Below, piece after piece: positions 46,744 to 58,637 of a stretch of 64,000 nucleotides of DNA (its first letter is position 1; the number at the start of each line of letters is the position of its first letter). The DNA is from Aeromonas fluvialis (GTDB lineage: Bacteria > Pseudomonadota > Gammaproteobacteria > Enterobacterales > Aeromonadaceae), in NCBI RefSeq assembly GCF_000819885.1, contig NZ_CDBO01000011.1, positions 37,893 through 101,892 on the forward strand, given 5' to 3'. A program made the position numbers and the translations under genes. The notes beneath the pieces are model-generated. The model saw nothing but the letters and a program-made list of their open reading frames with translations, had not been told where the DNA came from and did not search any database.

Positions 46744-48195
46744 TTATTTGGCCGGAATGGCTTCCAGCACGTGCACCAGTAGTTGCCAGAAACGCTCGAC
46801 TGCCGGGATATGTACCTTCTCGTCAGGGGAGTGGGCACCACGGATGGTCGGGCCGAAGGAGACCATGTCCCACTCCGGATAGGCGCTCTTGAACAGACCG
46901 CACTCGAGACCGGCGTGGATCACCATCACGTTGGGCATGGTGCCAAACAGCGATTGGTAGCTGCTCCGTACCAGCGCCATGACGGGGGAGTCCACGTTCG
47001 GTGCCCAACCCGGATAGGCACCGGTGAATTCGCAGCTGGCACCTGCCAGGGTGAACAGGGAGCGGGTCATCTGCTCGATGCTCTCGCGGCCGGAATCGAT
47101 CAGGGAGCGGATCAGGCACTGGACGTACACTTCGCCATCTTGCGTCTTGATGACCCCCAGGTTGGTGGAGGTCTCGGTCACGCCGGGCATGGCATCGCTC
47201 ATGCGCATCACGCCGTTCGGGCAGGCCAGCAGGGCATCCAGCAGGCGTTGCTGCAAGGAGGCGCTCATCAGCTTGGCCGGTTTGGCGGCGCTGTTGACCA
47301 GCAGGGTCAGGTTCGGCTCGGTGGCGGCCAGTTCGGTCTGGTAGATACCGGTATAGCGGTCAACCAGCGCCTTGAACTCGTTCACGCTGGCGGCGGGCAC
47401 CAGCAGGGTGGCGCGGGCTTCGCGCGGGATGGCGTTGCGCAGGGTGCCGCCGTGGATCTCGGCCAGACGGATACCCAGCGGCTCGGCTGCTTTGAGCAGG
47501 CGCACCAGCAGCTTGTTGGCATTGCCACGACCGCGATGGATGTCGCAACCGGAGTGACCGCCACGCAGCCCTTTGACCGCCAGCTCGAACGCTTCACCTT
47601 CGCTGGCGTCAACCTGCTCGAGCGGGAAACGGATATTGGCATCCACACCGCCGGCGCAGCCCATATAGACCTCGCCATCCTCTTCGGAGTCGGTGTTGAG
47701 CAGAATTTCGCCCTCCAGCCAACCCGCTTCCAGGCCGAAAGCGCCGGTCATGCCGGTCTCTTCGTCGGTGGTCAGCAGCACTTCCAGCGGACCGTGCTTG
47801 ATGGTCTTGTCAGCCAGCACAGCCAGGCAACCGGCCATACCGATGCCGTTGTCGGCACCCAGGGTGGTGCCACGAGCAGTGACCCACTCGCCATCTACAT
47901 AGGCATCGATGGGGTCGGTCGCGAAGTCGTGTTTGGTGTCGGCGTTGGCCTGCGGCACCATGTCGATGTGGGCCTGCAGCACCACGGCTTTGCGGTTTTC
48001 CATCCCCGGGGTGGCCGGTTTCTTGATGATGATGTTGCCGACCTTGTCCTGCTTGACCGCCAGACCTTCCCCTTGGGCCCATTGGATGATCCAGGCGCTC
48101 AGTACGGCTTCATGCTTGGAAGGGTGGGGAATGGAGCAGATCTGTTCGAAGAAATGCCAAATCAGTTTGGGAGAGAGAGAGCTAAGCTGTGCCAC
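46744..48195 (-). CDS. pepD: Cytosol non-specific dipeptidase PepD (aminoacyl-histidine dipeptidase)
   Basis: PepD is a zinc-dependent M20 peptidase that cleaves dipeptides, including carnosine-type substrates. The 483-residue product has LQAHIDMVPQA (metal ligand His, about 80), LGADNGIGMA, LLTTDEETGMTGA (catalytic Glu-Glu) and IHAGLECGLF. The start is GTG 48195: AAGGAG sits 7 bases upstream and the next residues AQLSSLSPKLIWHFF align with E. coli PepD, while the ATG at 48216 is upstream of that site. A CRP palindrome lies about 200 bases upstream, in the shared divergent region. Confidence 0.95.
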   Translation of the reverse strand: MAQLSSLSPKLIWHFFEQICSIPHPSKHEAVLSAWIIQWAQGEGLAVKQDKVGNIIIKKPATPGMENRKAVVLQAHIDMVPQANADTKHDFATDPIDAYVDGEWVTARGTTLGADNGIGMAGCLAVLADKTIKHGPLEVLLTTDEETGMTGAFGLEAGWLEGEILLNTDSEEDGEVYMGCAGGVDANIRFPLEQVDASEGEAFELAVKGLRGGHSGCDIHRGRGNANKLLVRLLKAAEPLGIRLAEIHGGTLRNAIPREARATLLVPAASVNEFKALVDRYTGIYQTELAATEPNLTLLVNSAAKPAKLMSASLQQRLLDALLACPNGVMRMSDAMPGVTETSTNLGVIKTQDGEVYVQCLIRSLIDSGRESIEQMTRSLFTLAGASCEFTGAYPGWAPNVDSPVMALVRSSYQSLFGTMPNVMVIHAGLECGLFKSAYPEWDMVSFGPTIRGAHSPDEKVHIPAVERFWQLLVHVLEAIPAK

Positions 48196-48387
48196 GTCGG
48201 GACTCCTTACCAGCACGGAATAAATAGGGCCCCATCAACGGGCCGGGGAAGAGGATAACGATAATACAGTCAATCACACAAAAATGTGAGCAATCAGCGC
48301 AAATCAACGGCAGCTTGTGCTGACCCATGGCAACCAGGCAGTACGATTGTCAGGTTCGGACGACGCAGGCTGGTAGAAAAGAAATTA

Positions 48388-48403
48388 TGTGACCGATCTC
48401 ACA
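48388..48403. promoter_or_regulatory. Perfect CRP binding palindrome
   Basis: TGTGA-CCGATC-TCACA matches the cAMP-CRP consensus in both half-sites. It is centred near -48 of the plus-strand promoter below, where it could repress or activate, and it may also act on pepD. Confidence 0.85.
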
Positions 48404-48409
48404 AAAATA

Positions 48410-48437
48410 TTGAATTTCACGCACTGACTGGTAAATT
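48410..48437 (+). promoter_or_regulatory. Promoter of the small-protein RNA
   Basis: TTGAAT (48410-48415), a 16-base spacer and TAAATT (48432-48437) lie just downstream of the CRP site and predict a transcript start near 48444. Confidence 0.5.
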
Positions 48438-48589
48438 AGCCCCCATGGTTCGCCACCCGTCAGGATGACGATGAAAGCCTCCAGGGAACCGAAGCAAAGC
48501 AAGTGCGCCTCCATGGAACCGAGTGTTCGTTCAAGGATTTGAGCCCGCATTAAAGGTACGTAACTTGTTAAGCAATCAGGAGTTTCAAT

Positions 48590-48679
48590 ATGCCAGGCAG
48601 CAACTCAACCTATTGGTTTGCCCCGTCTTTGTATACCCAGGGTTTCAGCTACCCTAACCCCTTCGTCACTCGTCGCTAA
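48590..48679 (+). CDS. 29-residue small protein, candidate VcdP homologue
   Basis: ATG 48590 is preceded by CAGGAG with 7-base spacing. The peptide is MPGSNSTYWF, APSLYTQGFS, YPNPFVTRR: aromatic-rich, soluble and with a basic end, with no membrane segment or signal peptide. In Vibrio cholerae the CRP-controlled RNA VcdRP encodes a protein of exactly 29 residues, VcdP, that binds and stimulates citrate synthase. Length and genetic context match; the Vibrio peptide sequence could not be compared here. It is too short to be found by ordinary gene callers. Confidence 0.6.
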   Translation: MPGSNSTYWFAPSLYTQGFSYPNPFVTRR

Positions 48680-48711
48680 GACGAGCTGCCCAACCAGGCA
48701 GAGGCGAGAAA

Positions 48712-48753
48712 GCAGCAGGTGCGTGAGGTCAAACCTCCCCCTGCTATTTTTTT
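48712..48753 (+). terminator. Terminator of the small-protein RNA
   Basis: AGCAGG (48714-48719) pairs with CCTGCT (48740-48745), and inner GAGG pairs with CCTC, followed by a run of seven T. The C run CCTCCCCCTG lies in the 3' arm. Confidence 0.7.
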
Positions 48754-48867
48754 ATCTGCGATTTGCCGCTACGCCTATTTTGGTGTCATTAGCAGCGACT
48801 AGAAGGTTGGTCGTTTGGCTCTCATGATGTGCCAAATGGAGAGGGTGATGCCGATTTTTCCTGTTTT

Positions 48868-48883
48868 TGGCATACGTTTGCCA
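48868..48883. promoter_or_regulatory. PurR-like operator upstream of gpt
   Basis: TGGCATACGTTTGCCA is a near-perfect palindrome and matches the PurR core GCAAACGTTTGC at 11 of 12 positions. A candidate -35 TTGGCA (48867-48872) overlaps it, with TTATCT 17 bases on. It lies about 260 bases before gpt, a purine salvage gene. Confidence 0.5.
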
Positions 48884-49144
48884 GGCATTTTATCTGCAAA
48901 CGGTGCTATCATACCGGCCCAATAGCCTGTCCGCGGTTTGGACACATCATCTAACCGATCGCCGGATACGCCCATCTTGCTTCCATTGTTATCAGATTTG
49001 CTGCCGAGGCTCAGCCCTGAGGCCGCCGAAGTGCAATCTGAATTCAGTCGGGCAAGGGCAGCCATTTGCTGGCATCCGCAGGGGGATTTGCGGGTTTAAT
49101 TATTTTAAGTGATTGTTTTTATATAACTATTCGAGATCGATAAC
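48884..49144. other. Leader region of gpt
   Basis: No gene is seen. If transcription starts near the PurR-like site, gpt has a leader of about 245 bases containing small hairpins; no known purine riboswitch core is recognised. Confidence 0.3.
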
Positions 49145-49612
49145 ATGCCGAAAAAGTTCTATGTGTCGTGGGACAACCTGCAACGTGAAGCTCGTCGTCT
49201 GGCCCGTCGTCAGCTACCTGTCAGCCAGTGGAAAGGTATCATCGCGGTTAGCCGTGGTGGTCTGGTGCCCGCTGCCCTGATGGCCCGTGAACTTGGCATT
49301 CGTAATGTGGAAACCCTCTGCATCTCCAGCTATGACCACGACAACCAGCGCGAGCTGGTGGTAGTGAAGGCCGCCACCACCGCCGGTGACGGCGAAGGCT
49401 GGCTGGTGGTGGAAGATCTGGTGGACACCGGCACCACCGCCAAGGCGATTCGCGAGCTCTACCCGAAAGCCAAGTTCATCGCGATCTTCGCCAAGCCGAT
49501 GGGCGAAGCGCTGTTGGACGATTTCGAAGTGGCGATCCCGCAGGATACCTGGATCGAACAGCCGTGGGATATGGCGCTGGAGTTCACCACGCCAATCTGC
49601 GACGAAGAGTAA
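49145..49612 (+). CDS. gpt: Xanthine-guanine phosphoribosyltransferase Gpt
   Basis: Gpt salvages guanine, xanthine and hypoxanthine using PRPP. The 155-residue product begins [17 protein letters not shown] and has the PRPP-binding motif [15 protein letters not shown] (about 86-100) and [12 protein letters not shown] near the C terminus. It is divergent from pepD, as in E. coli, and followed by a terminator. Confidence 0.97.
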
Positions 49613-57940: not shown

Positions 57941-58016
<76 letters not shown>

Positions 58017-58052
58017 AAATCTGATGATGACACTGGTGCAAACCAGCCCGAT

Positions 58053-58128
<76 letters not shown>

Positions 58129-58161
58129 ATCATCAGCCAGCCTCAAGACAACCAAATTGTT

Positions 58162-58237
<76 letters not shown>

Positions 58238-58261
58238 AACATTTGTAAGTGATATTCCGAT

Positions 58262-58337
<76 letters not shown>

Positions 58338-58361
58338 ATCACTTGCAGATGACATGCTGTT

Positions 58362-58437
<76 letters not shown>

Positions 58438-58461
58438 AACATTTGTAAGTGACATTCCGTT

Positions 58462-58537
<76 letters not shown>

Positions 58538-58561
58538 ATCACTTGTAAATGACATCCTGTT

Positions 58562-58637
<76 letters not shown>

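Follow-up and report, generated by a model that had tools for sequence, protein, structure and literature searches.

A VcdP-like small-protein gene with a conserved leader and no recognisable VcdR seed between pepD and gpt of Aeromonas

The closest described system is VcdRP of Vibrio cholerae, a 306-nt RNA transcribed between vc2278 and vc2279 that encodes a 29-residue protein at nt 104-193; its repressor CRP acts at a site that precedes the -35 element (PMC8672173). The protein, VcdP, boosts citrate synthase, and alanine at residues 15-18 stops GltA activation; the RNA part, VcdR, uses four cytosines within nt 223-232 to base-pair with PTS mRNAs (PMC8672173). In the Vibrio species compared in that paper, peptide and pairing seed are conserved together (PMC8672173). 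The open literature, with subscription journals mostly outside the scope of the search, yielded no paper on VcdRP in Aeromonas and none that links CsrA to VcdRP; the one paper returned for VcdRP and CsrA together concerns an sRNA of Rickettsia.

The stretch analysed here (the window) is 64 kb of Aeromonas fluvialis DNA. Positions 48388-48753 of its + strand carry no annotation and hold a gene of about 365 bases between pepD and gpt, with the following features:

46744-48216, - strand: pepD (TIGR01893, above cut-off)
48388-48403, + strand: CRP-type palindrome TGTGACCGATCTCACA, 6 nt 5' of the -35-like hexamer
48410-48437, + strand: promoter-like TTGAAT (48410-48415) and TAAATT (48432-48437) with a spacer of 16 nt, from sequence and conservation
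48441-48589, + strand: conserved 5' leader of about 149 nt, with a putative transcription start at about 48444
48458-48470, + strand: predicted hairpin P2a, CGUC-AGGAU-GACG, with CAGGAUG (a CsrB-type repeat) and a two-sided pair change
48477-48492, + strand: leader motif copy 1, GCCTCCAGGGAACCGA, from the motif search
48507-48522, + strand: leader motif copy 2, GCCTCCATGGAACCGA, from the motif search
48529-48544, + strand: predicted hairpin P2b, GUUCAAGGAUUUGAGC, with GGA in the loop and 2 pairs changed on both sides
48578-48582, + strand: Shine-Dalgarno sequence AGGAG, part of CAGGAG, from sequence
48590-48679, + strand: ORF of 29 codons for a VcdP-like small protein, MPGSNSTYWFAPSLYTQGFSYPNPFVTRR, from profile and dN/dS
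48714-48753, + strand: intrinsic terminator with GC stem and U-run, the C-run CCTCCCCCTGCT being its 3' arm, from conservation and predicted fold
49145-49612, + strand: gpt (NF006613, above cut-off)

The same locus is present in an A. caviae record, where the peptide is 83% identical, PepD 90% and Gpt 95%. The Vibrio gpt homologue (L316, 6128-6592) is annotated as Tet(34), a name that stands for oxytetracycline resistance. The Gpt of the window scores 221 bits with the NCBIfam Tet(34) exception model (cut-off 345) and 236 bits with the ordinary xanthine phosphoribosyltransferase model (cut-off 138), and since it scores higher with the latter and stays under the Tet(34) cut-off, the resistance name may mislead. 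Further along the window, 57941-58637 contains tandem tRNA-Gly(GCC) genes (n=7), whose covariance scores are all equal.

A sequence-only reading of this locus had described a perfect CRP palindrome, a promoter, a 29-codon ORF with a good ribosome-binding site and an intrinsic terminator, and these elements were confirmed. The palindrome TGTGACCGATCTCACA is the sole perfect TGTGAN6TCACA in 64 kb, where shuffles give an expectation of 0.11. Within 110-260 nt from the ORF, the best CRP site has no mismatch in 29 of the 35 Aeromonas loci and one in the other six, and a box with at most one mismatch is thus present in 35/35 loci, compared with 0.7% of 3000 random placements. Its distance upstream of the ORF is 200-204 nt in 34 loci and 145 nt in L050. 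Among 110 Vibrio and f11 loci (f11 is a second family of the order, described below) no perfect palindrome occurs; 66 sites have one mismatch, 37 have two and 7 have three or four. The promoter-like hexamers are kept across the Aeromonas alignment, L050 and L051 excepted. A simple consensus scan of the window called neither the promoter nor the terminator of the vcdP-like gene, and the support for both therefore comes from conservation and predicted fold: mean pairwise identity over the 35 Aeromonas genomes is 0.73 for the CRP-promoter stretch and 0.83 for the terminator stretch, while the flanks have 0.45 upstream and 0.33 downstream.

The ORF has a mean pairwise identity of 0.83 over the same genomes. 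Its third codon positions differ at 0.265, compared with 0.069 and 0.089 at the other two (3-4 times more), and dN/dS over the first 25 codons is 0.128 (35 Aeromonas genomes, 30 distinct ORF sequences). This substitution pattern indicates that the 29-codon ORF is under protein-level selection and, with the AGGAG upstream, bears out the coding sequence as first read. A DNA-level search of 100 genomes, including the genome of the window, gave matches in 36 of 37 same-genus genomes and in 0 of 63 others; the match in G010, 34 bases at an unrelated place, was dropped as a gene copy. With the peptide profile A2 the gene was found in 35 of the 37 same-genus genomes (21/21 and 14/16), which agrees with the expectation that the ORF is conserved across Aeromonas. 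In G010 both pepD and gpt are present and the small gene is absent between them (ORFs judged by eye; the leader model R1 described below was also blank), and in G029, again by eye, the fetched 1.5 kb preceding gpt showed no pepD, and neither the small gene nor the R1 leader was found. The A2 search returned none in 13 genomes of the same-family genus g2 and none in 14 genomes of genera g3-g5, five of which are less than 90% complete. Pfam contained no family matching the VcdP-like peptides, and a PDB search with the A2 profile gave nothing beyond two chance matches around E 1.

Relatedness of the peptide to VcdP was assessed with a profile built from 53 Vibrionaceae peptides and zero Aeromonas peptides. 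With this Vibrio-only profile the ORF ranks first among the 1617 stop-to-stop ORFs of at least 20 residues in the window (15.7 bits, E 9e-4), the runner-up scoring 8.6 bits (E 0.16), and 0 of 5000 shuffled peptides reached the 16.1 bits of the window peptide (best 13.6). In NCBIfam, NF053523 (VcdP) is the sole family that matches the peptide (18.9 bits, E 9e-4). This is far under the cut-off of 50 bits, so the NCBIfam VcdP model would not name the Aeromonas peptide; one Vibrio-type peptide (G081) scores 63 bits. Identity to the aligned Vibrio peptides is 26-41%, and both groups have the pattern [FY]-W-x(3)-[SNA]-[VL]-[YF]-T-x-x-[FY]-x-Y in common. Residues 15-18, mapped on Vibrio peptides other than that of V. 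cholerae, which was absent among the loci returned, read VYT[SG] or [SA]VFT (two registers) and align to SLYT(Q) in Aeromonas. The core needed for GltA activation is kept in the Aeromonas peptide as the aligned [SA]-[LV]-[YF]-T.

The genomic place agrees as well. A divergent pepD lies beside the gene in 30/30 Aeromonas loci (of 35), in 80/80 titled Vibrio loci and in both f11 loci, and gpt follows downstream in 29 of 30 Aeromonas loci and, within the fetched stretch, in 76 of the 80 titled Vibrio loci; from these Vibrio loci vc2279 was taken as pepD. In a V. parahaemolyticus record vcdRP is separated from the gpt homologue by an NCS2 permease. The Vibrio gene was first met through a weak match of the Aeromonas peptide (L053) and was then found in 29 of 33 genomes of f22 (Vibrionaceae); the other four gave no match, and the three of these that were inspected contain neither the peptide motif nor the R1 leader. 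Of the weak peptide matches in other families (E 0.01-0.1, 14 genomes) four were inspected: L053, which is the Vibrio gene, and L054, L057 and L058, which were rejected because they overlap large ORFs. Among the titled loci with the Vibrio gene 80 of 91 were kept (79 Vibrio or uncultured Vibrio and one 'Vibrionales bacterium'). They include V. furnissii, V. harveyi, V. anguillarum and V. splendidus, all four of which are in the published VcdRP alignment (PMC8672173). The profile rank, the place by pepD, the CRP site upstream of the -35 hexamer, which is a VcdRP feature, and the conserved functional core together argue that the Aeromonas peptide is a genuine VcdP relative.

Two further families of the order carry related genes. 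In f11 (two genomes) a Vibrio-like peptide, MQGIYCDLFWNRRGIYTGNFVYPREFGY in one genome, is preceded by the leader motif and sits immediately between pepD and gpt, as in Aeromonas; A2 by itself also picked up both f11 peptides (E 1e-6 and 7e-5). In f2 the leader motif lies away from pepD and gpt, 3' of a gene with a methylmalonyl-CoA-mutase domain (L261-L267, position 1501); the domain search (Pfam, NCBIfam IcmF) was run for L261, and the six other loci are alike by eye. In the 7 f2 loci inspected the motif is followed by a 27-residue VcdP-like ORF, MKNSVPATPVFGDLYNTKFTYPRHFGY or close variants, with E 6e-4 against the NCBIfam VcdP model and 14.9 bits against the Vibrio-only profile.

The strongest feature of the locus, which went unmentioned in the sequence-only reading, is the 5' leader. 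Over the 35 Aeromonas genomes it is the best-conserved part, above the ORF, with a mean pairwise identity of 0.88 and 71 of 149 columns invariant. The leader motif GCCUCCANGGAACYGA is common to Aeromonas, Vibrio and the families f11 and f2. A search with GCCTCCANGGAACYGA in 394 genomes of the order gave 62 positive genomes with one locus each (Aeromonas 21/21, f22 28/33, f11 2/2, f2 11/11), and the reversed control gave 0. Two exact copies of the motif are found in 32 of 35 Aeromonas loci. For the leader comparison 151 rows were reduced to 104 distinct ones and to 55 below 93% identity. The 108 Vibrionaceae loci consist of 79 titled loci and 29 others, in which the same species possibly appears twice. 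The exact 16-mer is missing from L105, and L199, which escaped the ORF expression, stands outside the 108; R1 finds the leader in both. This leader model, built without Aeromonas, gives 18.9 bits for the window and misses its genome at E 0.01, a weakness that is explained by the different order of the elements in Aeromonas. Matches of R1 outside the four families (G251, G116, G075, G267 and G134; E 5e-4 to 0.01 in a search of 247 genomes) were taken as chance.

Upstream of the motif lies a hairpin whose loop contains GGA. It has the form GCUCA-AAGGA-UGAGU in 100/107 Vibrionaceae and 7/7 f2 rows, and the remaining rows have GUUCA-AGGAA-UGAAC, GCUUA-AGGAU-UAAGC (f11) and other versions. The Aeromonas leader has two such predicted hairpins, P2a (CGUC-AGGAU-GACG) and P2b (GUUCAAGGAUUUGAGC). 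In the Vibrio/f2/f11 hairpin 2 pairs changed on both sides (reached by 9/500 shuffles), as in P2b (40/500), which has 4 two-sided cells (2/500). In P2a the outer pair changed from C-G to U-A on both sides; this one two-sided pair is reached by 305/500 shuffles and its 3 such cells by 21/500, and a control with the register slid by -3 scores 0.194 vs 0.215. With 9, 9 and 11 distinct short rows per alignment, picked manually and leaving out L050 and L051, the covariation is support and not proof. In Rfam, only seven tRNAs reach the threshold in the window and none lies at the vcdP-like locus; no family reached it in 11 related loci. Over 48200-49150 there were four sub-threshold matches, judged to be chance except for PrrB/RsmZ, a CsrA-binding RNA, over a GGA hairpin, which is the only weak match on the leader strand (13.1 bits, threshold 44, E 2.3).

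CsrB carries repeats of the type CAGGA(U/A/C)G, a short hairpin presenting ANGGAN makes a good CsrA site, and CsrA represses glgC from a loop site together with a second site over the Shine-Dalgarno sequence (PMC7652899). Csr RNAs of V. cholerae also have GGA in predicted loops (PMC6550530). Within its 149 nt the Aeromonas leader contains CA(N)GGA five times, and one copy covers the Shine-Dalgarno sequence. Five copies of this form, which was picked after seeing the sequence, occurred in 1/20000 shuffles (P 5e-5) and in 1/5110 windows of the 64 kb, possibly the leader itself; plain GGA was not enriched in the leader (5 vs 2.7, P 0.10). GGA in a hairpin loop, a feature of CsrA sites, is also present (small hand-picked sets). 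This pattern suggests that CsrA probably reads the vcdP leader.

The 15 consecutive leader bases 48499-48513, lying between the motif copies and reaching into copy 2, are identical in 35/35 Aeromonas genomes, and this constraint exceeds what GGA sites explain. Such invariance fits an alternative in which the leader, instead of offering a CsrA site, forms a self-contained switch, responding to a ligand or temperature or through an anti-Shine-Dalgarno fold, or an Hfq or pairing element; base-pairing of CCUCC with the Shine-Dalgarno GGAG is indeed conceivable. Every hairpin with two-sided changes, however, has a GGA loop, and neither the locus nor the 11 related loci gave an Rfam family at threshold, the sole weak same-strand match being PrrB/RsmZ. 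We regard this alternative as possible, on the doubtful side, and keep CsrA as the preferred reader of the leader.

The sequence-only reading had also pointed to the C-rich pairing region of VcdRP. In Vibrionaceae CCCC occurs within 75 nt after the ORF in 107 of 108 loci and the exact seed TTCACCCC in 93, and both f11 loci have TTCATCCC. Between stop and terminator of the 35 Aeromonas loci, CACCCC or TTCAC was found in 0, any CCCC in 4 and TCACCC in 3. Anywhere in the transcript TCACCC occurs in six of the 35 (post-stop in L008, L011 and L012, in the ORF in one and near the 5' end in two), and in f2 the 60 nt following the stop had not even CCC in any of the 7 loci inspected (0/7). The stop-to-terminator stretch has an identity of 0.42 in Aeromonas, which is like the flanks (0.45 and 0.33) as opposed to the leader (0.88) and the ORF (0.83). 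Pairing was examined by computing the duplex energy of each transcript part (leader, ORF and 3' part) with 12 PTS-related start regions (36 comparisons) against 31 start regions from the window as background, a crude comparison that ignores accessibility and in which several start codons were chosen by us. No PTS mRNA stood out among these, and most paired worse than the background (7/36 with negative z, lowest -1.3). The ptsH start region (L280) of the same genome carries GGGGUGAA before the start codon, which is exactly complementary to the VcdR seed of Vibrio; GGGGUGA occurs in 1/12 PTS-related and 0/31 background start regions.

The C-rich pairing region thus found no counterpart: the VcdR half is not recognisable in the Aeromonas sequences, the transcript probably does not silence PTS mRNAs by a Vibrio-type seed, and the C-run that had probably been taken for it (CCUCCCCCUGCU) is the 3' arm of the terminator. 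Because the seed is absent, we do not file the Aeromonas RNA as VcdRP proper. The proposed homology stands for the peptide, the pepD neighbour, the CRP layout and the functional core, but not for the VcdR seed. A full dual-function VcdRP could still silence PTS mRNAs through another C-rich stretch, either the CCUCCCCC arm of the terminator or the leader CCUCC: 28/35 Aeromonas loci have CCTCCCCC or a longer run in the terminator, CCUCC is nearly invariant, and to these can be added the three post-stop TCACCC and the complement of the Vibrio seed that the ptsH of this genome keeps 5' of its start codon. We consider this unlikely, as the PTS start regions mostly pair worse than the 31 background regions, the C-run sits in a terminator stem and is lost in the deep branches L050 and L051, and the stop-to-terminator stretch is no better conserved than flanking DNA. 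That the peptide is an unrelated small protein resembling VcdP by chance is very improbable: identity is low (26-41%) and the NCBIfam score is sub-threshold, but place, CRP layout, leader motif and profile rank all agree with VcdP, and f11 has a Vibrio-like peptide at the Aeromonas-type place between pepD and gpt.

The genome contains two citrate synthases, one of which can be aligned over its whole length with GltA-type enzymes of known structure. The closest structure is 4e6y, followed by 4g6b and 1nxe, which we take to be E. coli citrate synthases. This enzyme, presumably of type II, keeps phenylalanine at 383 (numbering counted on 4g6b). By analogy with Vibrio, the Aeromonas peptide may bind and activate GltA.

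We therefore consider it likely that the locus is transcribed under the control of CRP into an mRNA whose peptide activates citrate synthase; CsrA probably reads its leader, and a VcdR seed is not recognisable. The transcript would be short, about 310 nt, and would code for a VcdP-type protein of 29 residues. If expression and repression follow the Vibrio gene, CRP-cAMP would repress the gene when the preferred sugar is scarce, so that it would be made when sugar is plentiful. As in Vibrio, the peptide would bind hexameric GltA via its W-x(3)-S-L-Y-T core and raise its activity, easing NADH inhibition. A function at the RNA level would reside in the 5' leader, apparently an old element with GGA hairpins, to which CsrA would most likely bind, setting translation or stability of the vcdP mRNA. 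Most likely the gene works like the VcdP half of VcdRP plus an extra conserved leader.

Peptide and leader without the seed would mean that the two halves of VcdRP are separable in evolution, and the comparison shows which part the four families have in common. Tentatively, and just short of an even call, we propose that the core consists of peptide and leader, read by CRP and CsrA, across four or more families of the order, and that the VcdR seed is an addition on the Vibrio side. The leader points to an element not described before, which would tie together CsrA, CRP and the entry to the citric acid cycle. The known VcdRP system thus seems wider and differently built than described.

The Aeromonas gene is like VcdRP of V. 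cholerae in its homologous 29-residue peptide, divergent pepD neighbour, CRP box just 5' of the -35 hexamer, intrinsic terminator and leader motif. It differs in that it lacks a Vibrio-type seed, has a longer leader (about 149 vs 103 nt) with two motif copies and two GGA hairpins, and has no NCS2 permease between the gene and gpt. SpfP is the peptide of Spot 42, and SgrT of SgrS and its target are not known to be related to the VcdP-like peptide and its target. Spot 42/SpfP of E. coli is, by description, similar as a CRP-repressed RNA of carbon metabolism, but Spot 42 acts mainly by pairing. It is also bound by CsrA (PMC10729762). SgrS/SgrT of E. coli is likewise a peptide-coding small RNA acting on sugar metabolism; its conserved half is the pairing part (PMC8672173), whereas in Aeromonas it is the peptide and the leader. 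CsrB/RsmZ and glgC-type leaders have CAGGAUG in short hairpin loops and GGA at the Shine-Dalgarno sequence in common with the Aeromonas leader (PMC7652899). Unlike CsrB/RsmZ, the Aeromonas RNA is coding and has few sites (5 CA(N)GGA), and it therefore resembles a CsrA target more than a sponge.
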